This document shows, piece after piece, positions 34,962 to 48,068 of a stretch of 64,000 nucleotides of DNA. Position numbers and translations under genes: made by a program. The notes under the pieces were generated by a model, which saw only the letters and a program-made list of their open reading frames with translations, did not search any database and had not been told where the DNA came from. The DNA is from Martinezella tropici (GTDB lineage: Bacteria; Pseudomonadota; Alphaproteobacteria; Rhizobiales; Rhizobiaceae): NCBI RefSeq assembly GCF_003287875.1, contig NZ_QMKK01000035.1, positions 124,001 to 188,000 of the forward strand, in the 5' to 3' direction. Position 1 is the first letter of the stretch; each line of letters begins with the position of its first letter.

Positions 34962-35795
34962 TCAGCCCTTGGTGGCGCCTGCCGTCAGACCGCCCACGAA
35001 CAGGTTCTGGAAAAACAGGAACAGGAGAGCGACCGGAATTGTCATCACCATGGAGGCGGCCATCACCGCTCCCCAATCGGTGTTGAACTCGGTCGAAAAT
35101 TCCGCAAGCCCGATTGGCAGAGTCTTGACCGAGGAATCCGTCGCAAAGCAGAGCGCGAAGATGAATTCGTTCCAGGTGGTCACGAAGGCATAGACGACGA
35201 CAGCCACCAGGCCAGGCGTGGACAGCGGAAGCGTGATGCGGAAGAGCACGCCGAGGCGGGAGGCGCCGTCGATCGTCGCCGCCTCTTCCAGCTCGACGGG
35301 TATCGCCTTGAAATAGCTGGTCAGCATCCAGACGCTGAGCGGCAGGGTGATGATCATATAGACCAGGATCAGGCCCCAATAGGTGTTGACCAAATGCAGA
35401 TAGCGCAGCGTGATGAAGAGCGGCACGATGATCGCCGCGGTCGGGAGCAATTGGCCGATCAGCACGAGCGACTGCAAAAGCCGCCGGCCGCGGAATTCGA
35501 AACGGGCAAAGCCGTAGGAAGCGAAAATCGCCAGGATGAGTGCAAGACCCGTGGAACCGACTGAGATCACGGCGCTGTTCAGGAAGTAGCGCGGGATATT
35601 CGAACTGAAGATGACATTGATATAGTTGCCGAACGTTGGCGCTGCGGGGAGCCAATGCGGCGGCACAGTATAGAGTTCCGGAAGCGTCTTGATCGAAGAT
35701 AGTGCCATCCAGGCGAAGGGGAAGAGGCAGACGGCCATAAGGACGAGCGAGCAGACCGCAATCGTCAGCGTTGCAAGGCGACTTCTCCCCATCAT
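34962..35795 (-). CDS. Carbohydrate ABC transporter permease, MalG type
   Basis: About 277 residues with six membrane helices and an EAA loop VELEEAATIDGASRLGVLFRITLPL. The start (ATGATG at 35790-35795) overlaps the stop of the upstream permease. Last gene of the RraA/dehydratase/importer operon; no ATPase gene follows, and the ROK gene converges on it. Confidence 0.91.
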   Translation of the reverse strand: MMGRSRLATLTIAVCSLVLMAVCLFPFAWMALSSIKTLPELYTVPPHWLPAAPTFGNYINVIFSSNIPRYFLNSAVISVGSTGLALILAIFASYGFARFEFRGRRLLQSLVLIGQLLPTAAIIVPLFITLRYLHLVNTYWGLILVYMIITLPLSVWMLTSYFKAIPVELEEAATIDGASRLGVLFRITLPLSTPGLVAVVVYAFVTTWNEFIFALCFATDSSVKTLPIGLAEFSTEFNTDWGAVMAASMVMTIPVALLFLFFQNLFVGGLTAGATKG

Positions 35796-36649
35796 CGGGC
35801 CTCTCCCGGCCTTGTCGTCAGCACCCTCAGGTAGATCGCCACCAGCACAGCCGCCACCAGAAAGAAGATGACCGATAGGGCAGCGGCCTGATTGAACTGG
35901 AAACTCTCGAAAGCGAGCCGAAAAATCTGGATCGGCGTGATCAGCGTCTTGTTCGCCGGTCCGCCTTTGGTGATGGCATAGATGAGCGTGATCGAATTGA
36001 GCCCCCAGATCACCAGCAGCAGTGTCACCGCCGTGATGACCGGGCGCACCTGCGGCAGCGTCACATGCCAAACCTCTTCCCAGAAATTGGCACCATCGAC
36101 CTTGGCGGCTTCGTAGAGTTCCTTCGGGATCGCCTGCAGGCCGGCCAGAACCATGATGGCCACGAACGGAAACAGTTTCCAGACATTGATGGCGATCAGA
36201 ACGGGCATGACGGTGCCGCTATCGGTCAGCCAGCTGACGGGTGCCGGGATGATGCCGGCGCCTGTCATCATGTAGTTGATGATGCCGAATTCAGTGTGGA
36301 ACATCCATGCCCAGGTGGTCGCCGCAACGATGCCAGGAACGACCCAGGGGATCAGCGTTATCGAGCGCAGGACGGCGCGCCCGGTGAAGTGCTGGTTGAG
36401 CAGAATAGCTGTGGCGGTGCCGAGCACGACCTGAAAGACGATCGAGCCGCCGACGAAGTAGATCAGGTTGAAGAAGGCCTGCCGCGTGACCGGCGGACGC
36501 AGCACATTGGCAAAATTCCGGCCGGTGAAGGCGCCCTGCGAATTGGTGACGCTGAGCAGGATCGTGTAGGCGATCGGATAGGCGATCAGCATGGCCAGCA
36601 CGATCATGGCGGGCAGGACAAACAGAAGACCTGTAGATGGGCGGCCCAT
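35792..36649 (-). CDS. Carbohydrate ABC transporter permease, MalF type
   Basis: 285 residues with the chosen ATG at 36649 (MGRPSTG), preceded by AGGAAAGG; a GTG at 36685 would add 12 residues. Six membrane helices; EAA loop ELYEAAKVDGANFWEEVWHVTLPQV. Works with the MalG-type permease that overlaps its end. Confidence 0.91.
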   Translation of the reverse strand: MGRPSTGLLFVLPAMIVLAMLIAYPIAYTILLSVTNSQGAFTGRNFANVLRPPVTRQAFFNLIYFVGGSIVFQVVLGTATAILLNQHFTGRAVLRSITLIPWVVPGIVAATTWAWMFHTEFGIINYMMTGAGIIPAPVSWLTDSGTVMPVLIAINVWKLFPFVAIMVLAGLQAIPKELYEAAKVDGANFWEEVWHVTLPQVRPVITAVTLLLVIWGLNSITLIYAITKGGPANKTLITPIQIFRLAFESFQFNQAAALSVIFFLVAAVLVAIYLRVLTTRPGEAR

Positions 36650-36690
36650 GGGTCGGCCTTTCCTGTGATGCTGCGGGAATGTCACTCAGG

Positions 36691-36790
36691 GCAATTCCAG
36701 GAAAAGTGCGCAGCGGTTTTCCGCCCGGAATTGCGAGAAAACAAGAAGATGGAGCGGTTCAGAGATTCGGTGAAAAAGCTGAACCGCTCC
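36691..36790 (+). repeat. Dispersed ~100-base palindromic repeat, copy B
   Basis: GCAATTCC at 36691-36698 pairs with GGAATTGC at 36727-36734; a second stem joins GGAGCGGTTC (from about 36761) to GAACCGCTCC (36781-36790). It lies between the binding-protein gene and the MalF-type gene, inside the operon, and so could act in the message as a processing or attenuation structure. Same layout as copies A and C. Confidence 0.8.
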
Positions 36791-36856
36791 AATGTCCATG
36801 GCGCGGGCGGCAGCTTGACGCCGTCGCGTCAAAACCACGTCGCTCAGTCCCTGCCA

Positions 36857-38071
36857 TCAGCTATCAAGCAGCGCTTGAATTTCGTCCTTCGCCTGATCCA
36901 TGGCGGCTTGCGCATCCTGATCGCCTGAGAGCACGCGCTGCACGCCGTCGAACAGGGCTTGCGAAATCTCCACCCAGCGCGGCGTATTCGGTGCCGGCCG
37001 GCCGAAGGGAAGCATCGCCGCGAACTGTTTGAGCATCGGATCCTGGAACCGCGGCTGAGACAGTGCCGAAGCGCGGGCCGGGAAGGTGTCGGTGAAGAAA
37101 CCCTGATTGTCCGAGGTGGCGAGAAACTTGATGAACTTGCGGGCATCATCAGGGTTCTTGGCATCCTTCGGGATCACATAACTCCAGCCACCGATGATGC
37201 CGGCGGTCTGCTTGCCATCCGGATGCGGCGTTGCCATGGCGCCCAGCTTCAGATCGGGCTTTGCCTGCATGATCGGGGCAATGTCGAATTGACCGGCCTG
37301 ATACATGGATACCTTGCCGGCGATGAAGAGCTGACGGTTGGCAATGCCATCATTCTGCAGGGTCGAATCCGGCGAGTACTTGTTCTTATAGAAGTCCGTA
37401 TAGAATTTGACAGCGGCAACAGCCTCCGGCGAATTGACGACGGCGGTCTTTCCATCGGCGCTGATGACATCCCCGCCATTCATCCAGATCAGCGGCAGCA
37501 GGCGGGTCACCGTATTGCCGACCTCCCCGCCGCCGGTGATCGCCATACCGAACTTTCCGCCCGTCGTCAGCTTCCTTGCCGCATCCGTCCACTGATCCCA
37601 GGTCTGCGGCGGATTGGCGGGATCGAGGCCGGCAGCTTTGAAGTCTTCCATATTGTAGAGCACGCCGACACATTCGACACGGTAGGGTATGCCATAGAGC
37701 TTGCCGTCATAGGTGTCGTAGGTGATCGCCGCCTTGTTATAATCGCCCTTGTCTTCGATGATGTCATCGACAGGCAGAACGAGCCCGTTATGGGCATAGC
37801 CCTGAATCCAGGGATGCTGCACCTCGATGATATCCGGCGTCGCGCCAGACTGCAGGGCAGTCAGGATACGCTGCGGCAAACCGTTTGCCGTGGTGATCTC
37901 CATCTTGATGGTAATGTCGGGGTTTGCCTTCTTAAAATCGGCCGCGAGCTTTTCGGCTCGCGCCTGGCCCCAGTTCGGTGTCCACCAGACGACCTCGCCG
38001 GCCCATGCGCTGCTGCATGTCAGCGCCGAGACCGCGACGGCCGCAACGACCGTCATCCTCATCTTGTCCAT
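36857..38071 (-). CDS. Sugar ABC transporter substrate-binding protein
   Basis: 404 residues from the ATG at 38071 (MDKMRMTV), which follows AAGGAGGAGG. Sec signal peptide ending SSAWA, then GEVVWWTPNWGQARAEKLA. Family-1 binding-protein features: GATPDIIEVQHPWIQGYA, YGIPYRVECVGVLYN, GIIGGWSYVIPKDAKNPD. Belongs to the importer encoded downstream at 34962-36649 and sits in one operon with a dehydratase and an RraA-like protein. Confidence 0.92.
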   Translation of the reverse strand: MDKMRMTVVAAVAVSALTCSSAWAGEVVWWTPNWGQARAEKLAADFKKANPDITIKMEITTANGLPQRILTALQSGATPDIIEVQHPWIQGYAHNGLVLPVDDIIEDKGDYNKAAITYDTYDGKLYGIPYRVECVGVLYNMEDFKAAGLDPANPPQTWDQWTDAARKLTTGGKFGMAITGGGEVGNTVTRLLPLIWMNGGDVISADGKTAVVNSPEAVAAVKFYTDFYKNKYSPDSTLQNDGIANRQLFIAGKVSMYQAGQFDIAPIMQAKPDLKLGAMATPHPDGKQTAGIIGGWSYVIPKDAKNPDDARKFIKFLATSDNQGFFTDTFPARASALSQPRFQDPMLKQFAAMLPFGRPAPNTPRWVEISQALFDGVQRVLSGDQDAQAAMDQAKDEIQALLDS

Positions 38072-38181
38072 TGCCTCCTCCTTCACGCGAGATGTCCGTC
38101 GCGCCTGTGTCCTGACCTTTCATGCCATTGGCATAGACAAGGTGGCTCCTCTTTCCACCCGGTCCCGCTCATTCCGGTCAA

Positions 38182-39369
38182 TCAATTGCGTCCATCCTTC
38201 CCGACGCGCGAGAAGGTCGCCGCCCCTGCCGCGACACCGCTCGTATTCATGCTGCCGTCGAACAGCGGCACGTCGTATGGGGCGTAGGGATAGCGCGCGC
38301 AGGCTTCTTCGTTCAGCTCAACGCCCAACCCCGGTGCCGTCGGCGCAAGGATCGCGCCATCCTCGAATTGCAGCGTCTCGCGCACGAGTTCCTTGCGCCA
38401 GGGCACGTCGATCGAGACGGTTTCGAATACCGAAAAGTTCGGGATGGCGACCGACATGTGCAGTGTCATCGCATTCATGACGGGTCCGACCGGGTTGTGC
38501 GGCGCGACTGGGATAAGATGGTAATGCGCCATGTGGGCGATACGCTTCGTCTCGCCGAGACCCCCGGCATGGGAAACATCCGGCTGCAACACGTCCACTG
38601 CCTTCTTGGCCAGCGCCTCGAGGAAGCGGGTGGGCTCGTACCAGCGCTCGCCGGCGGCAATCGGCACCGAACTTGCCGCGCGCACGTCGGCCAGCGCATC
38701 GATGCTTTCCGGCGGTGTCGGCTCCTCGATCCAGCGCAGATCAAACCGTGCAAGCTCGCGGCACATGGCAATCGCCGTCGGCACGTTCAACCGGCCATGC
38801 ACGTCGAGCATAAGGTCCACATCCGGACCGACCGCATCGCGCACCGCCGCGACGATATCGATCGTCTGCCGGCGTTGCTTGCCATTCATTTCGAGATCGG
38901 CGACATCGAAAGGATCCCACTTAAGGGCGCGGTATCCCATGTCCACAGCCTCGCGGGCCTTTCGCGCATATTGATCCGGCGTCACGGCGCCAAAGAACCA
39001 GTGATTGGCGTAGCATTCGACCCGATCGCGATATTTCCCGCCGAGAAGTTCGAATGCCGGGACCCCGAGTGCCTTTCCCTTGATATCGAGAAGGGCCGCC
39101 TCTATCGCGCCGAGGGCGGTGCGAAAGACCGCGCCTGTCCGCCAATAGGAATCGCGATGCAGCTGCTCGACGATCGCATCGACGGCAAACGGGTCGCGCC
39201 CGATCAGCACACGTTCCAACTCCTCCAGTGCGGAGACGACCGTCTTGGTCTTCCATTCGAGTGTCGCCTCGCCGACGCCCTCCAGCCCCTCATCGGTATA
39301 GAGCTTCACAAAGACGAAGTTGGTCCGCGAAACATTTGCGACGAAGACCTTCTGCGCCGTAATTTTCAT
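38182..39369 (-). CDS. Enolase-superfamily acid-sugar dehydratase (MR/galactonate dehydratase-like)
   Basis: 395 residues of the mandelate racemase subgroup. A capping domain comes first (MKITAQKVFVANVS), then a TIM barrel with ALKWDPFD (one catalytic-side lysine), metal ligands in LMLDVHGRLN, WIEEPTPPE and AAGERWYEP, and the general-base histidine region APHNPVGPV. This set is typical of D-galactonate- or related aldonate dehydratases, which remove water to form a 2-keto-3-deoxy acid. Substrate inferred only by class. Middle gene of the operon with RraA-like protein and importer. Confidence 0.88.
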   Translation of the reverse strand: MKITAQKVFVANVSRTNFVFVKLYTDEGLEGVGEATLEWKTKTVVSALEELERVLIGRDPFAVDAIVEQLHRDSYWRTGAVFRTALGAIEAALLDIKGKALGVPAFELLGGKYRDRVECYANHWFFGAVTPDQYARKAREAVDMGYRALKWDPFDVADLEMNGKQRRQTIDIVAAVRDAVGPDVDLMLDVHGRLNVPTAIAMCRELARFDLRWIEEPTPPESIDALADVRAASSVPIAAGERWYEPTRFLEALAKKAVDVLQPDVSHAGGLGETKRIAHMAHYHLIPVAPHNPVGPVMNAMTLHMSVAIPNFSVFETVSIDVPWRKELVRETLQFEDGAILAPTAPGLGVELNEEACARYPYAPYDVPLFDGSMNTSGVAAGAATFSRVGKDGRN

Positions 39370-39429: not shown

Positions 39430-40125
39430 TCAAAGCCGTCCGTATTTCGCATAGATGTCGGCGACATCGCCGCCGGCACGGATCTCGTCGCGCGACCTGT
39501 TTTCGATCGTCAGAACCTCTTCCGCGCGTGCCAGAACGGCGTCGACCCTATCGGCGGGAATGACCATCACGCCATCCATATCGCCGAAAAGCCAATCGCC
39601 CGGGTTGACCCTGATCTGTGAGGTCAAGGTGCCGGTGACGGAAATCGGGACCTCGATGCCGCTGATGCGGGTGCGGCCGCGCGACTCGATGGGCGAGAGA
39701 TAGCGGGTAAAGACCGGCCAGTCCTCCATTCCCATGAGAATATTGCCGTCTCGGATTCCGCCGTCAACGACGACGCCGACTGCGCCACGCGCCTTCGAAG
39801 CGGTGCTCATCAACTCACCCCAGTGACCGGCCTTGCATTCGCCCGCGGCTGAGATCAGCACGACACAGCCTGAATACATGCGGCGGAAGAAGGTGAAGGT
39901 TTTGACCTCTTCGAGATCATATTCCTCATCGGTACGCATATCGACCGTCGCGGCGACCGTGAAGGCAGGGCCGGCGATGCGCATCGCACGGTCGAGCGGC
40001 CGAATGCCGAGATCCATGCATTGATTGGGCAACCCCATCTCGTCGAGGATATCATAGACTGCCGCGGTATAAAGTTTGTTGAACCGCTCGGCCCTGCCTG
40101 CGACGTCCGCATGCTGCGTAACCAT
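39430..40125 (-). CDS. RraA/HMG-aldolase family protein
   Basis: 231 residues from ATG 40125 (MVTQHADV, GGAGGAGG site). Contains the family motif GVVVDGGIRDG with Arg and Asp that bind pyruvate/metal, and GDWLFGDMDGVMVIP. Members without RNase-regulator function act as 4-hydroxy-4-methyl-2-oxoglutarate aldolases or oxaloacetate decarboxylases. Being first gene in a dehydratase/importer operon, it more likely acts on the keto acid of the same pathway than on RNase E. Confidence 0.85.
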   Translation of the reverse strand: MVTQHADVAGRAERFNKLYTAAVYDILDEMGLPNQCMDLGIRPLDRAMRIAGPAFTVAATVDMRTDEEYDLEEVKTFTFFRRMYSGCVVLISAAGECKAGHWGELMSTASKARGAVGVVVDGGIRDGNILMGMEDWPVFTRYLSPIESRGRTRISGIEVPISVTGTLTSQIRVNPGDWLFGDMDGVMVIPADRVDAVLARAEEVLTIENRSRDEIRAGGDVADIYAKYGRL

Positions 40126-40198
40126 GGCCTGCCTCCTCCAGCTGAGCCCATTCTGCAAGCGCGTCTGGAAACCGCCGCCTCCACGATCGTTTCCTATT

Positions 40199-40252
40199 TG
40201 AACTTTATCAGTTCTCTAATGAATGATAATAGAAGGCTCGCAGGTTTGTCAA
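40199..40252 (-). promoter_or_regulatory. Promoter of the RraA operon with IclR-type site
   Basis: On the minus strand: TTGACA (40247-40252), 15-base spacer, TATTAT (40226-40231), then ten bases and the inverted repeat at 40199-40215 (TGAAC-N7-GTTCT on the plus strand). The repeat therefore covers about +4 to +20. The same layout is seen at 41593-41650 and 47060-47113. Also upstream of the divergent gene at 40332. Confidence 0.65.
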
Positions 40253-40331: not shown

Positions 40332-41525
40332 ATGAAGATCGTCGACCTCAAATGCGCCATCATCGGCAAGAGCCCGATCGTGCGCATCGTCACCGATGAA
40401 GGCGTTTCCGGCTATGGCCAGGCCGAAACGTGGAAGCCCTATCTAAAGCCGCATATCCTTGCCTTCCGGGAGGCGCTGATCGGCGAGGATCCGACCAATG
40501 TCGAGCGTGTCATGTTGAAGATCCGCCAGCGCGGAAGCTTCAAGCCCTGGGGCGCGGCCGTCAGCGTCATCGAGATGGCGCTCTGGGATGTAGCGGGCAA
40601 AGCGGCAAACCTGCCGGTGCACAAACTGCTTGGTGGGCGCGTGCGCGACCGCATTCGCGTCTACAACGGCTCCATTCGCTTTCCAATCAGCGGTTACGAG
40701 CCGGAGCACATGGCCGACGATCTGAAGAAGATGATGGATCTGCCTGAAGGATTCACTATCATCAAACAGCCGATCGGCTTCCATTCACCGATGAAGCGGA
40801 TTCCGGATTTCTATTACGGCGAACCCAATGCCAGCCCCTTCCACGGCGCACTCGACCGTGGTCCGATCACGGAAAAGGGCCTGCGCCATCTGGTCGATTG
40901 TGTTGCCGCGATGAAGGAAGTCGCCGGCGACAGGATCGGGCTGGCGCTCGATTGCGGCCCGGGATGGATGCTGTCCGATGCGATCCGTCTTGCCCGCATG
41001 CTGGAGCCCTATCATCTGCTGTGGATCGAGGACCTGCTCTCCGGCGACTATACGCCTTGGGTCAATGCCGGCGTCTATCGTGAACTGACATGCGCGAGCA
41101 CGACGCCGATCCATACCGGCGAGCAAATCTATCTGCGCCAGAACTTCAAGGAACTGATCGAAGGCCAAGCGGTCAATGTCGTCGGCCCCGATCCGGCCGA
41201 TGTCGGCGGCATCGCCGAACTCAAATGGATCGCCGAATATGCCGATCTTCATTCGATCATGATGGCGCCGCACGGGACGGCGAACGGCTTGCTCGGCCTC
41301 GGCGCGCTCATCCAGGTATGCGCCACCCTGCCTCAAAATTTCATCGCCTTCGAGTATACGACCGGCGACTCGGACTGGTGGTACGACATCGTCGAGGGCC
41401 TGCCGCAGACGATCGTCAAGGATGGCTTTGTCGATGTCATCGAACGACCAGGCATGGGCGTCGACCTCTTACCCGAACGCGCAAGACTATATCTCGCGGA
41501 AGACGACCAAACATTCTTCGATTGA
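40332..41525 (+). CDS. Enolase-superfamily enzyme (mandelate racemase/muconate lactonizing-like)
   Basis: 397 residues. Capping domain MKIVDLKCAIIGKSPIVRI, barrel with FTIIKQPIGFH, metal ligands in IGLALDCGPGW, LLWIEDLLSGDY and IHTGEQIYL, and the C-terminal APHGTANGLLG histidine segment. This is a different subgroup from the dehydratase at 38182-39369, so two distinct acid-sugar or lactone steps are likely. First gene of the plus-strand operon; GAGGAGCGGAA precedes the ATG. Confidence 0.87.
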   Translation: MKIVDLKCAIIGKSPIVRIVTDEGVSGYGQAETWKPYLKPHILAFREALIGEDPTNVERVMLKIRQRGSFKPWGAAVSVIEMALWDVAGKAANLPVHKLLGGRVRDRIRVYNGSIRFPISGYEPEHMADDLKKMMDLPEGFTIIKQPIGFHSPMKRIPDFYYGEPNASPFHGALDRGPITEKGLRHLVDCVAAMKEVAGDRIGLALDCGPGWMLSDAIRLARMLEPYHLLWIEDLLSGDYTPWVNAGVYRELTCASTTPIHTGEQIYLRQNFKELIEGQAVNVVGPDPADVGGIAELKWIAEYADLHSIMMAPHGTANGLLGLGALIQVCATLPQNFIAFEYTTGDSDWWYDIVEGLPQTIVKDGFVDVIERPGMGVDLLPERARLYLAEDDQTFFD

Positions 41526-41592: not shown

Positions 41593-41650
41593 TTGACATC
41601 CCGATTTTTTGATTCCTATAGTTGGTCTATTGTGAACTGTATCTTGTTCA
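41593..41650 (+). promoter_or_regulatory. Promoter of the importer operon with IclR-type operator
   Basis: TTGACA (41593-41598), 18-base spacer, TATAGT (41617-41622, five of six matches), then ten bases and TGAACTGTATCTTGTTCA (41633-41650), that is TGAAC-N8-GTTCA. The operator covers about +4 to +21, a repressing position. It gives the importer genes a promoter separate from the enzyme gene at 40332. Confidence 0.72.
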
Positions 41651-41712
41651 TATGAGAACACGTCTGCGGCGAGCTGGAGGAGCGGAACGCTGGCGGCCTG
41701 AGGAGGAGGCTC

Positions 41713-42588
41713 ATGGGAATCCGATGGAGCCGCGTCGTCCCGCATCTGGCTGTTGCGCCGGCGGCGCTGTTGACGCTTGTGTTTTTCATTGGAGCGATAG
41801 GCTGGACCGTCTATCTCTCCTTCACGGCATCGAGGCGCTTTCCCGACTATGAACTCGTCGGCTGGAAGCAATATTGGCGGCTTTTCCACGATCCTTCCTG
41901 GATCCTGTCCCTGCAGAACCTCGCCATCTTTGCCGTGGGGAGCCTGCTGTCGATCGTAACGGGTTTTATCCTTGCCGCCTTGATCGACAAGGAGGTGCAC
42001 GGGGAAGGCATCTTCCGCACGGTTTTTCTCTATCCGCTCGCCGTTTCGCTGATCGTCACCGGGCTCGTCTGGCGCTGGCTCTTCAATCCGGAGCTCGGCA
42101 TCGAGAACGTGCTTCACTCGATGGGTTGGCAGAGCGCTTCCTTCAACTGGCTCGCAAGCCAGGACACGGTCATGTTCGGTGTCATCCTGGCGGCGGTCTG
42201 GCAATCGACCGGCTTCTTCATGGCGCTCATGCTTGCCGGCCTGAAGTCGATCAACACCGAGATCTGGCAGGCCGCGCGCCTCGATGGCGTCCCCTTCTGG
42301 CGGCTCTATATCGAGGTCATCATCCCTATGATGAAACTCACCTTCTTGACCTGCATCATCCTGCTCTGCATCGGCGTGGTGAAGGCCTATGACATCATCG
42401 TCGCAATGACCAATGGCGGACCAGGCGGCGCATCGGTCATGCCGGCCTATTTCGTGATCGACGCCTATTGGCAGAAGCAGAATCTCGGCTTCGCCTCTGC
42501 GGGCGCGGCCGTCATGCTGCTGACGACTCTCGCCCTCTTCCTGCCGCTCGTCGTCATCACGGCTATCAGGCAAAGGAGGGCGGCATGA
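41713..42588 (+). CDS. Carbohydrate ABC transporter permease, MalF type
   Basis: 291 residues, six membrane helices, EAA loop EIWQAARLDGVPFWRLYIEVIIPMM. GAGGAGGAGG precedes the ATG. Its last bases overlap the next permease (ATGA at 42585-42588). Confidence 0.92.
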   Translation: MGIRWSRVVPHLAVAPAALLTLVFFIGAIGWTVYLSFTASRRFPDYELVGWKQYWRLFHDPSWILSLQNLAIFAVGSLLSIVTGFILAALIDKEVHGEGIFRTVFLYPLAVSLIVTGLVWRWLFNPELGIENVLHSMGWQSASFNWLASQDTVMFGVILAAVWQSTGFFMALMLAGLKSINTEIWQAARLDGVPFWRLYIEVIIPMMKLTFLTCIILLCIGVVKAYDIIVAMTNGGPGGASVMPAYFVIDAYWQKQNLGFASAGAAVMLLTTLALFLPLVVITAIRQRRAA

Positions 42589-43493
42589 CGGCAATTTCCG
42601 CCGCAGCGCAATCCGGTCGAGAAACGAAAGCGCGCCGGCGCCCGCTGATCCGGCCAAGCCGGGTGGTGATCTTCATCTTCCTGCTGATGGCAGCCGCGTT
42701 TTTCGCGGTTCCGCTTTATGTCATCGTCGTGACGTCCTTCAAGACGATGGATCAGATCCGCGAAGGGCAGATATTCTCCCTGCCTTCGCCGTGGACGACC
42801 GAAGCCTGGTCCTATGCCTGGACGCAGGCCTGTTCCGGCATGAACTGCAACGGCGTGCGTATCGGTTTCGTCAATTCGCTCTATATTCTTGCCCCGAGCC
42901 TCGTGCTGACGATCTCGCTATCGATCGTCACCGGCTACGGGTTGGCGCTGTGGAATGTCAAATGGGCGAACGGCTTCCTGTTCGTTCTCTTCATATGCGC
43001 CTTCGTGCCGTTCCAGATCATCATGTATCCGCTGATCAAGATCACCGGCGCGCTGCATATTTACGGCACCACCTTTGGCATCGCCGTCATTCACAGCGTC
43101 CTGTCCCTGCCCTTCCTGACACTGATCTTCCGGAATTATTTCCGGGGCATGCCGCCGCAGATCATCGCGGCCGCCATGATCGATTCCGGTTCTTTCTGGC
43201 GGATCTTCTTCGAGATCGTTCTGCCGATGTCGGGCAATATCATGATCGTCGTCCTGATCCTGATGATCACCGGCATCTGGAACGACTTTCTGGTCGGCCT
43301 GACCTTCGGCGCACAGGACGCACAGCCGATGACGGTCGTGCTCAACAACATCACGGTGACGACCACGGGCGCCAAGAACTATGCGGTCGACATGGCCTCG
43401 GCGCTGCTCACGGCCCTGCCGCCGCTCGTCATCTACTTCGTCCTCGGCAGGTTCTTCGTGCAGGGCATCACCGCCGGCGCCATCAAGGGATAG
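42585..43493 (+). CDS. Carbohydrate ABC transporter permease, MalG type
   Basis: 302 residues with a basic 25-residue cytoplasmic N-terminus, then six membrane helices; the EAA loop is QIIAAAMIDSGSFWRIFFEIVLP. A cysteine pair in the first periplasmic loop (ACSGMNC) is unusual for the family. Translationally coupled to the MalF-type gene before it. Confidence 0.92.
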   Translation: MTAISAAAQSGRETKARRRPLIRPSRVVIFIFLLMAAAFFAVPLYVIVVTSFKTMDQIREGQIFSLPSPWTTEAWSYAWTQACSGMNCNGVRIGFVNSLYILAPSLVLTISLSIVTGYGLALWNVKWANGFLFVLFICAFVPFQIIMYPLIKITGALHIYGTTFGIAVIHSVLSLPFLTLIFRNYFRGMPPQIIAAAMIDSGSFWRIFFEIVLPMSGNIMIVVLILMITGIWNDFLVGLTFGAQDAQPMTVVLNNITVTTTGAKNYAVDMASALLTALPPLVIYFVLGRFFVQGITAGAIKG

Positions 43494-43497
43494 GGGC

Positions 43498-44601
43498 ATG
43501 CCTTCCATCGCATTCAACAATATCGTCAAGAAATTCGGCGCTCTCACGGTCATCGAGAACCTGAACCTCAGCATCGGCGACGGCGAATTTCTGGTGCTGC
43601 TCGGCCCTTCCGGCTGTGGCAAGACAACGCTTCTCAATCTTCTGGCAGGCCTGCTCGAAATCGACGACGGTGAAATCCTCATCGATGAGCGGGACGTCAG
43701 CTACCTCGATCCCAAGGATCGCGGCCTTGCCATGGTCTTCCAGTCCTACGCGCTCTATCCGACCAAGACAGTACGCGGGAATATGAATTTCGGACTGTCT
43801 TCGCGCGGCATCACGAAAGAAGAGGCGGACAAGCGGATCGCCTGGGCATCCAAGCTGCTGCAGATCGAACATCTTCTCGACCGCAAGCCCTCGCAGCTTT
43901 CCGGCGGCCAGCGCCAGCGTGTCGCGATTGGCCGGGCGCTTGTCAAGCAATATGGCGTCTGCCTGTTCGACGAGCCGCTTTCCAACCTTGACGCCAAGCT
44001 GCGCAACGAAATGCGCATGGAGATCAAGAAGCTCCATAACCAGCTCAAGAATACCGTCGTCTACGTGACCCATGATCAGGTCGAGGCGATGACCATGGCG
44101 ACCAAGATTGCCGTGATGAACAAGGGGGTCATTCAGCAATTCGGCACGCCTGATGAAATCTACAATGAGCCGGCCAATCTGTTTGTCGCCGATTTTGTCG
44201 GTTCCCCGGCCATGAACCTGCTCGACTGCACCGTCAGTCGTGACGGCGGCGACCTCGTTGCGGTGGATGAGAAGAGCGGCATCCGCATCGGGCTTGGCGA
44301 ATACAAGTGGAAGGCGAAGGCTGCCGAAGGCAAACCCGTGAAGATCGGGTTCCGGGCCGAAGAGCTTCTGATCGAGGAGCGTCAGGACGCGGGAAACACC
44401 GTTCGCTTCGACTGCCCGGTTGAATATTTCGAGAAATCCGGGCCTGACGCCTTCGCTTTCCTGACCATGTCGGGAAAGAGCATCGCCGTACGCATCGATG
44501 GGCGTGACGCAAATCGCTATCGCAGCCAGCCAGCTCTGCCCGTCTATCTGCCGCTCACCAAGCTGAACGTCTTTGACGCTCCGACCGGCCAGCGGCTGTG
44601 A
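43498..44601 (+). CDS. Sugar ABC transporter ATPase, MsmK/UgpC type
   Basis: 367 residues. Walker A GPSGCGKTT, signature LSGGQRQRVAIGRALV, Walker B VCLFDEPLSNLDAKL and VTHDQVEAMTMA are intact, followed by a C-terminal regulatory OB domain. It is the only ATPase gene in the IclR-type block and may energise both permease pairs (41713-43493 and 34962-36649). Start at 43498, four bases after the permease stop. Confidence 0.93.
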   Translation: MPSIAFNNIVKKFGALTVIENLNLSIGDGEFLVLLGPSGCGKTTLLNLLAGLLEIDDGEILIDERDVSYLDPKDRGLAMVFQSYALYPTKTVRGNMNFGLSSRGITKEEADKRIAWASKLLQIEHLLDRKPSQLSGGQRQRVAIGRALVKQYGVCLFDEPLSNLDAKLRNEMRMEIKKLHNQLKNTVVYVTHDQVEAMTMATKIAVMNKGVIQQFGTPDEIYNEPANLFVADFVGSPAMNLLDCTVSRDGGDLVAVDEKSGIRIGLGEYKWKAKAAEGKPVKIGFRAEELLIEERQDAGNTVRFDCPVEYFEKSGPDAFAFLTMSGKSIAVRIDGRDANRYRSQPALPVYLPLTKLNVFDAPTGQRL

Positions 44602-44628
44602 CCAGATCAAGAAAGGGAGGAATATTGC

Positions 44629-45876
44629 ATGACGAAATGGAAATCCCTGCAGAGGCTGTCCCTCTTGCTTGCCGCGACCACTCTTGCCGCAAGCGCCTGG
44701 GCAGATGAGGTCGTGGTCTATCACACCTGGTCGAAACCATCTGAGATCGCGGCGCTCACCGTTCTGCGGCAGGCGTGGGCCAAGGACGGTCACCAATGGA
44801 AAGACCTGTCCATCGCCCATGACTCCGGCGCCAATGTCAGCCTGATGAACATGATCACCGGCGGCAACCCGCCCGCGATCTTCATGAATTCCGATCCCGG
44901 CATCTATCGGGATCTGAACAAGCAAGGCCTCGGCGTACCGCTCACCAAGCTGTTCGACAGCATCGGCGCCACGAAGAACTTCCCGCCGTCCGTCTTGAAG
45001 AACATCACCGTGGACGGGGAAATCATGAAGGCGCCGGCAACGGTGCATATCGACGGGATGATCTATTACAACAAGCATGTCGCCGAAGCGGCCGGCGTCG
45101 ATCCGAAGTCCTGGAAATCGCTCGACGACCTCTTCGCGGCCTTCGACAAGGTCAAGGCCGCCGGCTACATCCCGATCGCCCAGGGCGGCGATCAGTTCCA
45201 GAAGGCCTATCTGCTGCAGGCACTGATCGCATCGGAAGAAGGCCCCGATATCTACAATCGGTTCTACGGTGAAAAGCCCGACCGCACCGTCATCGATACG
45301 CCGGAAATGCGCGCGGCGCTGAAGCGCTTCCGCCAGATTGCCGAGCACACCGATCCGGGCTCGCCCAACCGCCAGTGGAACGATACGACCAATCTGGTCA
45401 TCACCGGCAAGGCTCTGTTGCAGATCCATGGCGATTGGATGAAGGGTGAGTTCCTGGCCGCCCACCAGAAGCTTGGCGAGGATTTCGACTGCATGAATAT
45501 CCCCGGAACCAAGGCCGTGGTCGTGACGGTCGATTCCTGGGGCTTCCTCAATACCAATAATGCCGAGACCGCCAAGGCCCAGGAAGACTTCGCCAAGCTC
45601 GATGTCGACCCGAAGCTGAATGCCGAATTCGTCCTGAAGAAAGGCGCAAGCCCTGTTCGTATCGACGCGGATACGACGAATCTCGATGCCTGCAACAAGC
45701 TCGTTCTGGAAACGCTGAAAGACCCGACAAAGCAGGTCTCCAACCCCTTCAATACGGCTGATGCCGACTGGTATCGCACCATCTGGCAGGAAGCCGACAA
45801 ATATTGGAGCGATCCGAAGCGCACGGACGACCAGTTCGTGCGGGCGATGCAGGACGCCTATGACCAGATCTTCTAG
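44629..45876 (+). CDS. Sugar ABC transporter substrate-binding protein
   Basis: 415 residues. Sec signal ending ASAWA, then DEVVVYHTWSKPSEIAAL. Segments GGNPPAIFMNSDPGIYRDL, KAPATVHIDGMIYYNKHV and IPIAQGGDQFQKAYLLQAL resemble the glucose-type binding protein at the left edge of the window. GGGAGGA precedes the ATG. Last gene of the plus-strand operon; a dispersed repeat starts two bases after the stop. Confidence 0.93.
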   Translation: MTKWKSLQRLSLLLAATTLAASAWADEVVVYHTWSKPSEIAALTVLRQAWAKDGHQWKDLSIAHDSGANVSLMNMITGGNPPAIFMNSDPGIYRDLNKQGLGVPLTKLFDSIGATKNFPPSVLKNITVDGEIMKAPATVHIDGMIYYNKHVAEAAGVDPKSWKSLDDLFAAFDKVKAAGYIPIAQGGDQFQKAYLLQALIASEEGPDIYNRFYGEKPDRTVIDTPEMRAALKRFRQIAEHTDPGSPNRQWNDTTNLVITGKALLQIHGDWMKGEFLAAHQKLGEDFDCMNIPGTKAVVVTVDSWGFLNTNNAETAKAQEDFAKLDVDPKLNAEFVLKKGASPVRIDADTTNLDACNKLVLETLKDPTKQVSNPFNTADADWYRTIWQEADKYWSDPKRTDDQFVRAMQDAYDQIF

Positions 45877-45877
45877 A

Positions 45878-45978
45878 GTAATTCCAAGAAAAGCGCATAA
45901 CGGTTTTCCGTCCGGAATTGCGTTGGGACAAAAAGCTGGAGCGTTTTCGCAATTCGAAGAAAAGCAGAAACGCTCTAA
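45878..45978 (+). repeat. Dispersed ~100-base palindromic repeat, copy C
   Basis: TAATTCC near 45879 pairs with GGAATTGC (45913-45920); a second stem joins GAGCGTTTT to AAACGCTC. Order and spacing match copies A and B. Being directly after the binding-protein stop it may also serve as the 3' end of the message. Confidence 0.8.
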
Positions 45979-46056
45979 ACCCCGCGACGAGAGAACCCGG
46001 CAGATAACCGCCGGGCCCTTTTGAATTATCTGCTATCGAGGAAGACAACAGCCCGT

Positions 46057-46500
46057 TCAGGCTGATTCATCATGCAATCTCCTGATGGCCTGGAGCTGAA
46101 TGCAATCCGGCGCCATCTCCATGACTTCGATCTGCGTGCCATCGGGATCCTCGATCCATGCGCCGCGATTGCCATCGATGCCGATCTTCGTCGGCCTTGG
46201 CTTACTGGGGTGAATGCCCACCTTCGCAAGCTCTTCGAACGTCTTGTCGATGTCTTCAACGGTGAGGCAAATATGGAAGATGCCAATGACGTCCGGGCCG
46301 GCTTCCGGCCGCTTTATCCCCTTCGGGAAAAGCTCGAGATATTGATCGTCGTTGATCCTCAAATAGACGATCCACGCCTCGCCCTGATCATTGAGCAGAC
46401 GCGTCATCTCGCGAAAGCCGAGCTTCTGGTAAAAGGCCAGCGACTTGTCGAGATCATTGACGCGCAATGCGATATGACCGAGATGCCTGAAAAGATCCAT
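46057..46500 (-). CDS. VOC (glyoxalase/dioxygenase fold) metalloprotein
   Basis: 147 residues, single-subunit VOC fold with two beta-alpha-beta-beta-beta modules. Metal ligands of the glyoxalase I type are present: His9, Glu56 (YLELFP), His76 (FHICL) and Glu125 (IEVM). Closely similar to the gene just upstream (46504-46938), from which it is separated by three bases. Probably a lyase or isomerase acting on an intermediate of the acid-sugar pathway, or a glyoxalase dealing with a reactive aldehyde product. Confidence 0.85.
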   Translation of the reverse strand: MDLFRHLGHIALRVNDLDKSLAFYQKLGFREMTRLLNDQGEAWIVYLRINDDQYLELFPKGIKRPEAGPDVIGIFHICLTVEDIDKTFEELAKVGIHPSKPRPTKIGIDGNRGAWIEDPDGTQIEVMEMAPDCIQLQAIRRLHDESA

Positions 46501-46503
46501 GGC

Positions 46504-46938
46504 TCAGACCAGTCCCTTGATGCGGCGAATAGCGGCCGTCTGCATGGCGTCTGCGCCGAGCTGCATCAGCTCGATGCGGTTGCCTTCCGGATCTGCGATC
46601 CAAGCCTGGTAATTGTTGTCGACACCGAGCTTCTTTTCCGCCGTCAGGACGACGCCGCGGCTGGTGATATCGGCGATCGCCTCATCGATATTCTCAACCT
46701 CGAGGCAGAGATGATTGTATCCGACATTGGCAAATGGCGGTGCGCCATCGCCGACGCCCTCCGGAAACAATTCGATGAACTGCGTGTCGGTGATCCGCAG
46801 ATAGACGATCCACAGGCGGCCGTCACGATCGAGCCGGAACATTTCGTCGAAGCCCAGCTTGTTGACATAGAAGTCAAGCGAGCGGTCGATGTCCTTTACG
46901 CTGACAGCCACATGTCCGATCGATTTCACACTCTTCAT
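46504..46938 (-). CDS. VOC (glyoxalase/dioxygenase fold) metalloprotein, tandem paralogue
   Basis: 144 residues with the same ligand set: His9, Glu56 (FIELFP), His76 (NHLCL) and Glu123 (IELM). Shared stretches such as WIVYLRI and ELFP show that the pair arose by tandem duplication. First gene of a two-gene unit; its promoter (47084-47113, minus strand) carries the IclR-type site at 47060-47077. Confidence 0.85.
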   Translation of the reverse strand: MKSVKSIGHVAVSVKDIDRSLDFYVNKLGFDEMFRLDRDGRLWIVYLRITDTQFIELFPEGVGDGAPPFANVGYNHLCLEVENIDEAIADITSRGVVLTAEKKLGVDNNYQAWIADPEGNRIELMQLGADAMQTAAIRRIKGLV

Positions 46939-47059
46939 TGCATCCTCCTCCGTAATTCCGTTTCGCCGCGCGTGCCGGCGCAGCCACTCGCCAAACCTCC
47001 GATCCGGCGTCTTTTTCGAAACGCTGTGCCGCGATTAAATCGACATGACGTTTCTTATT

Positions 47060-47113
47060 TGAACTGATATAAGTTCATCTAAGAATTTACCGGCATTCTC
47101 ATGTCGGAGTCAA
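47060..47113 (-). promoter_or_regulatory. Promoter of the VOC genes with IclR-type operator
   Basis: Minus strand: TTGACT (47108-47113), 18-base spacer, TAAATT (47084-47089), then six bases and TGAACTGATATAAGTTCA (47060-47077), a palindrome of form TGAAC-N8-GTTCA. It is also upstream of the IclR gene on the plus strand, so probably gives autoregulation. Confidence 0.7.
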
Positions 47114-47195: not shown

Positions 47196-48068
47196 ATGAC
47201 AGACATTAGTGAAGACGCCGCGCAAAAGTATCGTATCCCCGTCATCGAACAGATGGTGGAGGTGTTCGCGTTGCTGGAGCGCACGCCTGAGGGCGCGACG
47301 ATCCGGGATGTCGTCAAGGCAGTGAAGCTGTCGCGCACCACCGTCTACCGCATGCTGAATACGCTGAGCGCCCATGACTTCGTGCATCGCTCACCAGCGG
47401 GAAGCTATACGCTCGGCAGGCGCCTTCTCACACTTGCAGCCCATGTCGCTCCCACCGTTGCAAGTTACGATCTCCTGGCGATCGCGCAGCCGCATCTGAA
47501 CAGGATTTCCGAACTTCTTGGCGAAGGCAGCAAGCTGACGGTGCCCTCAGGTGACAATATCCTGGTTGTTGCCTCGGCGCAGGGCCATGGCCAATATGCG
47601 CTCTCGGCAACGGCAGGCCAGCGGCTGCCGTTTCATGCGGGTGCCGCCGGCAAGATCCTGCTTGCCTTCTCCTTGCAGGAGGACATTGAGCGGCGCCTGA
47701 CGAAGCTGGAGCGCTTTACCAACCAGACGATTACGGACCCAAACAAAATGCTCGAAGAGCTTGCGCTGATCCGCAAGCAGAATTGGGCGCGGGACATGGG
47801 CGAGCAGATGTCCGGCGTCCATGCAATCGCGGCCCCCGTAAGGGATCACCAGGACACGGTCATTGCAGCCGTCAGCGTTCCTTTCGTCACGGGCGTCGAC
47901 GAGAAGCGCGTGGCAGAGATCAGGCAAGCCGTGATCGCAGCAGCACAATCGATCACCAACGATATCCGATCGGCAACACCCGAGATGCCGTCAGCGCATC
48001 TGGCTGCTGAGAAGCCCGCAATCAAGCGAACAAATCAAGGAATGGCGGCAAAGCCGAAGCAGCGATAG
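47196..48068 (+). CDS. IclR family transcriptional regulator
   Basis: 290 residues from ATG 47196 (MTDISED; AGGA site). The winged helix-turn-helix is ATIRDVVKAVKLSRTTVYRMLNTL (about 31-54, given here in family terms), and the IclR effector domain follows, with LPFHAGAAGKILLAF and AAPVRDHQDTVIAAVSVPF. A basic C-terminal tail of about 25 residues is an extension. Divergent from the VOC genes. The nearby TGAAC-N8-GTTCA palindrome recurs at the other promoters of the block, making this the likely regulator of all of them. Confidence 0.9.
   Translation: MTDISEDAAQKYRIPVIEQMVEVFALLERTPEGATIRDVVKAVKLSRTTVYRMLNTLSAHDFVHRSPAGSYTLGRRLLTLAAHVAPTVASYDLLAIAQPHLNRISELLGEGSKLTVPSGDNILVVASAQGHGQYALSATAGQRLPFHAGAAGKILLAFSLQEDIERRLTKLERFTNQTITDPNKMLEELALIRKQNWARDMGEQMSGVHAIAAPVRDHQDTVIAAVSVPFVTGVDEKRVAEIRQAVIAAAQSITNDIRSATPEMPSAHLAAEKPAIKRTNQGMAAKPKQR

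Follow-up and report, generated by a model that had tools for sequence, protein, structure and literature searches.

Probable repression of a Rhizobium sugar-acid-type gene cluster by an IclR-family regulator acting through three-box operators

Three palindromic sites in a cluster of sugar-acid-type uptake and breakdown genes very probably serve as operators for the IclR-family regulator whose gene lies at 47196 to 48068 (here, IclR-B), which would repress an RraA-dehydratase-ABC operon, a second ABC transporter operon, and a VOC operon until an effector is present. Judged from comparisons within and between genomes, the IclR regulon is real, conserved, and probably local, and its operator has three boxes. 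The cluster spans 34.9 to 48.1 kb of the window (the whole stretch of DNA analyzed, 64,000 nucleotides). It contains two enolase-superfamily dehydratase-like genes, one gene for an RraA-like aldolase, two sugar-type ABC transporter sets, two VOC genes, and one gene for an IclR-family regulator. For this uncharacterized Rhizobium cluster, having a proposed regulator with its local targets narrows the search for the substrate. Some of the ABC permeases were named through matches to annotated loci (L064 and L065), and the start codon of the IclR-B gene was picked by us. The genes are as follows.

47196 to 48068, plus strand: IclR-family regulator IclR-B, proposed repressor (Pfam HTH_IclR and IclR_C above cut-off)
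46504 to 46938, minus strand: VOC (glyoxalase-fold) protein 1, proposed target (Pfam PF00903)
46057 to 46500, minus strand: VOC protein 2, proposed target, predicted from gene order to be co-operonic with VOC protein 1 (Pfam PF00903)
41713 to 45876, plus strand: second ABC transporter operon (two permeases, ATPase, and solute-binding protein), proposed target (profile matches; second permease through annotated locus L064)
40332 to 41525, plus strand: enolase-superfamily protein 2, divergent from the RraA gene and located downstream of IclR-A (see below) in sister clusters
39430 to 40125, minus strand: RraA-like aldolase, leading gene of a proposed target operon (Pfam PF03737)
38182 to 39369, minus strand: enolase-superfamily sugar-acid-dehydratase-like protein 1, predicted from gene order to be in an operon with the RraA gene (profile matches)
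34962 to 38086, minus strand: solute-binding protein and two permeases, which from gene order may extend the RraA operon (profile match; permeases through annotated locus L065)

IclR-B belongs to the IclR family; PF09339 scored 38.6 bits (cut-off, 22) and PF01614 scored 136.2 bits (cut-off, 24), so both the N-terminal HTH domain and the C-terminal effector domain are present. Its best NCBIfam match is PcaR/PcaU/PobR (TIGR02431), and membership in that subfamily was rejected because the score of 136.3 bits is far under the subfamily cut-off of 284.75. The top NCBIfam matches of the dehydratase-like proteins are sugar-acid dehydratases, with scores under their cut-offs, and because of this resemblance our guess for the effector is a sugar acid or a derivative of one. 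A possible clue to the substrate is an ORF located upstream of the second ABC operon in a related locus (L042:2606-3805), which appears to resemble a four-carbon acid sugar kinase (DUF1537). The intergenic region after the second solute-binding gene of the window (45878 to 45980) contains the self-complementary pieces GGAATTGCG and CGCAATTC and looks, by eye, like an intergenic repeat.

The first-pass annotation described a palindrome at 47060 that recurs at 41633 and, in weaker form, at 40199, each time preceded by a -35 box, a spacer, and a -10 box. All three sequences are found at these positions, and the order of the elements holds, with a spacer of 18 bases at all three promoters and 6, 10, and 7 bases, respectively, between the -10 box and the operator. 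The elements are as follows.

47084 to 47113, minus strand: VOC promoter, TTGACT-18-TAAATT (general promoter scan; equal hexamers at a gap of 6 in 17/18 orthologous sites)
47060 to 47077, minus strand: candidate VOC operator, boxes a and b, N8, TGAACTGATATAAGTTCA on the plus strand and TGAACTTATATCAGTTCA on the minus strand, between the divergently oriented VOC and IclR genes
47050 to 47054, minus strand: third box GAAAC of the VOC operator
41593 to 41622, plus strand: ABC promoter, TTGACA-18-TATAGT (general promoter scan; gap of 10 in 16/16 loci)
41633 to 41650, plus strand: candidate ABC operator, N8, TGAACTGTATCTTGTTCA (arms identical in 16/16 loci)
41656 to 41659, plus strand: third box GAAC of the ABC operator
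40223 to 40252, minus strand: RraA promoter, TTGACA-18-TATCAT (general promoter scan; gap of 7 in 4/4 sites)
40199 to 40215, minus strand: candidate RraA operator, N7, hybrid type, TGAACTTTATCAGTTCT on the plus strand and AGAACTGATAAAGTTCA on the minus strand, with one arm mismatch
40189 to 40193, minus strand: third box GAAAC of the RraA operator

Written in promoter-wise order, the arrangements are TTGACT-18-TAAATT-6-TGAACTTATATCAGTTCA-AATAAGAAAC (VOC, minus strand), TTGACA-18-TATAGT-10-TGAACTGTATCTTGTTCA-TATGAGAAC (ABC, plus strand), and TTGACA-18-TATCAT-7-AGAACTGATAAAGTTCA-AATAGGAAAC (RraA, minus strand). The hexamers match at 11/12 positions in the ABC and RraA promoters and at 9/12 in the VOC promoter. 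The position of the operator relative to the -10 box had been called constant; a strictly constant distance was rejected (6 bases for VOC, 7 for RraA, and 10 for ABC), but the position is constrained and near-fixed within orthologous sets (10 in 16/16 ABC sites, 6 in 17/18 VOC sites, and 7 in 4/4 RraA sites). Two of the three promoters (VOC and RraA) are on the minus strand. The site at 47060 does adjoin the IclR gene, as had been noted, but its promoter fires away from that gene and towards the two divergent VOC genes, and the palindromic core is one part of a three-box site.

The evidence against chance from the window alone is moderate. By chance, 64 kb should contain 0.07 exact TGAAC-N7/8-GTTCA cores (estimate from 15 random sequences); the window contains two. 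Two observations are in keeping with a chance resemblance of AT-rich intergenic sequence: about 2.5 cores with at most one mismatch should arise in every 64 kb, and the total of the general promoter scan, 6 in the window, is near the shuffle level (mean, 4.0; standard deviation, 2.1). That scan, which was blind to the operators, picked all three operator-associated promoters. Chance is contradicted by conservation across genomes and genera and by a permuted-arm control, both described below, and its probability is negligible.

A genome-wide scan gave a divided answer. The 6.95-Mb genome has 8 exact N8 cores, of which two are inside the window, and 4 exact N7 cores, all outside it. The idea that the bare palindrome is unique to the cluster was thus rejected, since unrelated matches exist. 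The extended site fared better: matches to the core plus third box at 0 to 1 mismatch are confined to the three window sites, from which the third box of the search pattern had itself been derived, and 2 to 3 mismatches add only a few places (2, 3, 1, and 0 in four scans).

A weight matrix was made from 14 sites of other genera, located in clusters of IclR relatives that are 43 to 50% identical (L058-L061, L065, L067, L070, L073, and L074). Its three highest scores in the window are the sites at 47060 (31.8), 40199 (24.7), and 41633 (20.6), followed by 8.5 (beside the VOC operator) and 8.3 (at an unrelated place). Because the 14 sites were gathered with the core pattern of the window, the arms were to some extent bound to agree, and only the flanks are independent evidence. 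The best score among 40 random 64-kb sequences was 19.4, just under that of the weakest window site. In a related locus, a fourth candidate operator (L031:1043-1060; one arm mismatch, N8, tail TATTTGAATAG, and a 9/12 promoter) is located between the first dehydratase gene and the gene for its solute-binding protein. With the same matrix, no counterpart was found upstream of the first solute-binding protein of the window, nothing beyond the three sites scoring above 8.53.

The layout was evaluated in 31 sources (the window, L031-L043, and L058-L074), using all TGAAC-N7/8-GTTCA matches with at most one mismatch and counting the layout as present where a promoter of at least 9/12 ended 4 to 10 bp from the palindrome on either side. 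It is present in 51 of the 86 matches. With the arms permuted into 59 other letter orderings, it was found in 10 of 1,979 matches, and all 10 are the same operators in a shifted register. This test repeats, without picking, an analysis of a 52-site list chosen by eye, in which 50 sites have a promoter at most 60 bases upstream and one has it on the opposite side, while letter-shuffled upstream sequences of the same sites gave a mean of 1.3 sites with a promoter and a maximum of 4 (200 rounds). Two of the 14 distant sites in that list lack a 9/12 promoter. Two remote loci, L044 and L045 (IclR proteins 27 to 28% identical), were omitted from both analyses, and because orthologous sites are linked by descent, the counts do not represent independent events. 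The position relative to the -10 box had been called hard to explain by chance; the contrast between 51/86 and 10/1,979, together with the conservation across genomes, bears this out, and chance resemblance was rejected through the permuted-arm and random-sequence controls.

A protein search with IclR-B returned 13 close loci (L031-L043; 74 to 94% identical) in addition to the remote L044 and L045, and relatives at 38 to 50% identity exist on plasmids and in genomes of other genera. Of the 148 surveyed genomes of the genus (taken as Rhizobium), 18 carry IclR-B, and all 18 have the N8 site between the IclR-B and VOC genes, one with an arm mismatch. The ABC site occurs in 16/16 loci that have the ABC promoter in the retrieved DNA, the window included (there is no ABC promoter within the retrieved DNA of L039 and L040). 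An RraA gene of this type is found in 7 of the 148 genomes, the window's included, each with an N7 site upstream; L032-L036 and L038-L043 have no RraA gene within the retrieved DNA. Two pairs of records, L037/L089 and L031/L088, are each apparently from one genome and were counted once. The arms are 100% identical in the ABC operators (16 loci) and 99% identical in the VOC operators (18 loci), with spacers of 73% and 78%, respectively, the window being included in both sets. Conservation in orthologous clusters, which the first-pass annotation had named as a check, is therefore observed for all three sites, and the reuse of one operator layout at three promoters is supported by both the genome scan and this comparison. 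The operator lies near the regulator and its neighbors and is conserved with the regulator, as in a local regulon, except that among distant loci whose IclR genes are related, four (L062, L063, L071, and L072) have no layout-bearing site at up to one mismatch. In L070, a site with the layout is present, but away from the IclR gene.

In the mechanism that we propose, the operator consists of TGAAC, N7-8, GTTCA, and, about one turn further on, GAAC or GAAAC, with the three boxes alternating in direction. Transcription normally starts 6 to 10 bases beyond the -10 box. Each site begins 6 to 10 bases past the -10 box and would thus overlap the expected start point along with the first bases of the transcript. 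Because the operator would cover the normal start position, bound IclR-B should block initiation, that is, repress by occlusion. The repressed units would be the RraA-dehydratase-ABC operon, the second ABC transporter operon, and the VOC pair, with operon extents predicted from gene order. The operator would be freed by an effector, which is likely to be a sugar acid or a breakdown product. Near-consensus promoters, as found in two of the three cases (11/12), fit genes that are kept off by a repressor.

Alternatively, IclR-B might bind the sites but chiefly activate transcription in the manner of PcaU, either because the site acts on the IclR gene or with activation requiring an effector. The PcaR/PcaU/PobR family is the best NCBIfam match, the site at 47060 scores best in the IclR direction (31.8, versus 21.8 in the VOC direction, with the other-genera matrix), and PcaU-type sites likewise have a third box, according to earlier work cited by Suvorova and Gelfand 2021 (PMC8222616). 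We consider an activating role unlikely, however, because the family match is far under its cut-off, all three promoters have the site beyond the -10 box, an unexpected place for an activator, and two of these promoters are near consensus. It is also conceivable that the palindrome, which would fall at the very 5' end of each predicted transcript, acts in RNA as a hairpin. We give this almost no credence: only five bases would pair, around a loop of 7 to 8 bases; the arms are almost invariant, so that no covariation backs the pairing; and the third box would be left unexplained.

A further alternative is that the sites belong to another regulator, encoded elsewhere in the genome, with IclR-B as a bystander. 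The occurrence of the bare core elsewhere in the genome is compatible with such a regulator, which is nonetheless very unlikely in view of the confinement of extended sites at 0 to 1 mismatch to this cluster. Of 297 genomes of the family, moreover, one has an exact match to the extended N8 site: the window's own, which is the only one of the 297 with a close IclR-B. The layout-bearing site is also absent from four related clusters with other regulators nearby, GntR in L083 and L084 and LacI in L085 and L086 (loci selected from lists of 94 and 10 records). L086 is the only one of the four with a one-mismatch core, and that core is promoterless. The genes shared with the window cluster are the dehydratases in L083 and L084, the second transporter only in L085, and both in L086. 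On these related dehydratase and/or ABC gene sets, the regulator appears to have been swapped between IclR and GntR or LacI.

Five genomes of the genus (L037:2416-3135 and L089-L093) and a Neorhizobium locus, L073, have a second IclR gene (IclR-A), about 50% identical to IclR-B, between the RraA gene and the second dehydratase gene; it is absent from the window. Five genomes have both regulators, with distinguishable operators. A tree of 23 proteins separates IclR-A from IclR-B with full support on the dividing branch, although the deeper nodes are weakly placed and long branches come together. The putative recognition-helix stretch is almost equal in the two lineages (LSRTTVYRMLNTL versus LPRTTVYRILNTL). 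The operators differ in spacer and third box. RraA sites beside IclR-A have N7 and a TGGAT box in 6/6 loci, and the site adjoins the regulator gene in all six IclR-A loci examined; other-genera sites with the promoter layout have N7 in 12/12 cases. The VOC and ABC sites of IclR-B clusters have N8 in 34/34 cases (VOC sites in 18/18 in the genus census). In the two-regulator reading given below, IclR-A sites would have TGGAT, TGAAT, or TGAAC as the third box, and IclR-B sites AAAC or GAAC. The RraA site of the window combines N7 with a GAAAC box, IclR-A being gone, and L031/L088 is alike in this. One IclR-A-type cluster (L065) is found on pTiAF3.44 of Agrobacterium larrymoorei, a plasmid named as a Ti plasmid, where the divergent operon contains a gene annotated as mannonate dehydratase.

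We tentatively propose, as a possibility that we would not yet favor, that IclR-A and IclR-B share TGAAC half-sites and are kept apart by one spacer base (N7 or N8) and by the third box; that IclR-A was lost in the window lineage, where the N7 operator was retained with a GAAAC box, as if IclR-B had taken over the RraA operon; and that the three-box geometry falls outside the two published dimer modes. The cases that relate third-box type to the loss of IclR-A are few: the A type accompanies IclR-A in 6/6 loci, and the B type occurs in two lineages without it (the window and L031/L088). In L069, IclR-A is missing next to the RraA gene (only the plasmid record was searched), yet a TGAAT box is kept, and the site at L031:1043 has an N8 spacer with an A-type tail, counter to a clean division. 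Because of these two cases, takeover of an orphaned RraA operator by IclR-B is graded as suggested. If the two-regulator reading is true, the unusual spacing of the boxes would mean a three-box binding geometry unlike the two published dimer modes. Genomes with both regulators allow the avoidance of cross-talk between repressors, and the transfer of an operon from one to the other, to be tested directly.

GAAAC or GAAC follows each core in the window, and TGAAT, TGAAC, or TGGAT follows most cores in other genera. A downstream third box is found in 16/16 ABC, 18/18 VOC, 3/4 RraA, and 9/12 other-genera sites, against a background of 13% in shuffled tails and 4% at random places, using a fixed pattern that was composed once the tails were known and with 2 of the 14 distant sites omitted. 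A mirrored upstream box occurs in 2/16, 18/18, 2/4, and 3/12 of these sites, respectively. The mirrored match of the VOC site shares bases with the -10 box. It could belong to the promoter or serve the divergent IclR side as a fourth box.

In the literature, no title or abstract opening among the matches listed names this regulator or cluster. TtgV (2xrn/2xro) and BlcR (3mq0), whose structures have been solved, belong to the IclR family like IclR-B, with sequence matches of 4.9e-15 and 1.4e-12; in this comparison of sequences alone, both are distant from IclR-B, and they have other targets. PcaU, PobR, and HmgR have aromatic targets, whereas those of IclR-B would be of the sugar-acid type, and the PcaU half-site TTTGTTCGATWATCGMACAMA differs from the TGAAC found here. 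PcaU is named as an activator in the title of a reference cited in PMC8222616, whereas we propose repression for IclR-B.

The closest comparison is with the IclR operators of Suvorova and Gelfand 2021. According to that paper (PMC8222616), IclR proteins of 32 orthologous groups have palindromic half-sites of the GAAC/GTTC type and an alternating third box, and the sites adjoin gene starts, with transport and sugar-acid genes as common targets. The window operators, which likewise have three boxes of alternating direction, are similar in half-site type, third box, kinds of targets, and nearness to the gene start. They differ in box spacing, which is AAC-N7/8-GTT and GTT-N8/9-AAC here and AAC-N3/4-GTT and GTT-11-AAC in the two consensuses of that paper. 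We therefore file them as operators of the three-box IclR kind, outside both spacing classes published there, for a group of regulators that may already be among the groups of Suvorova and Gelfand.
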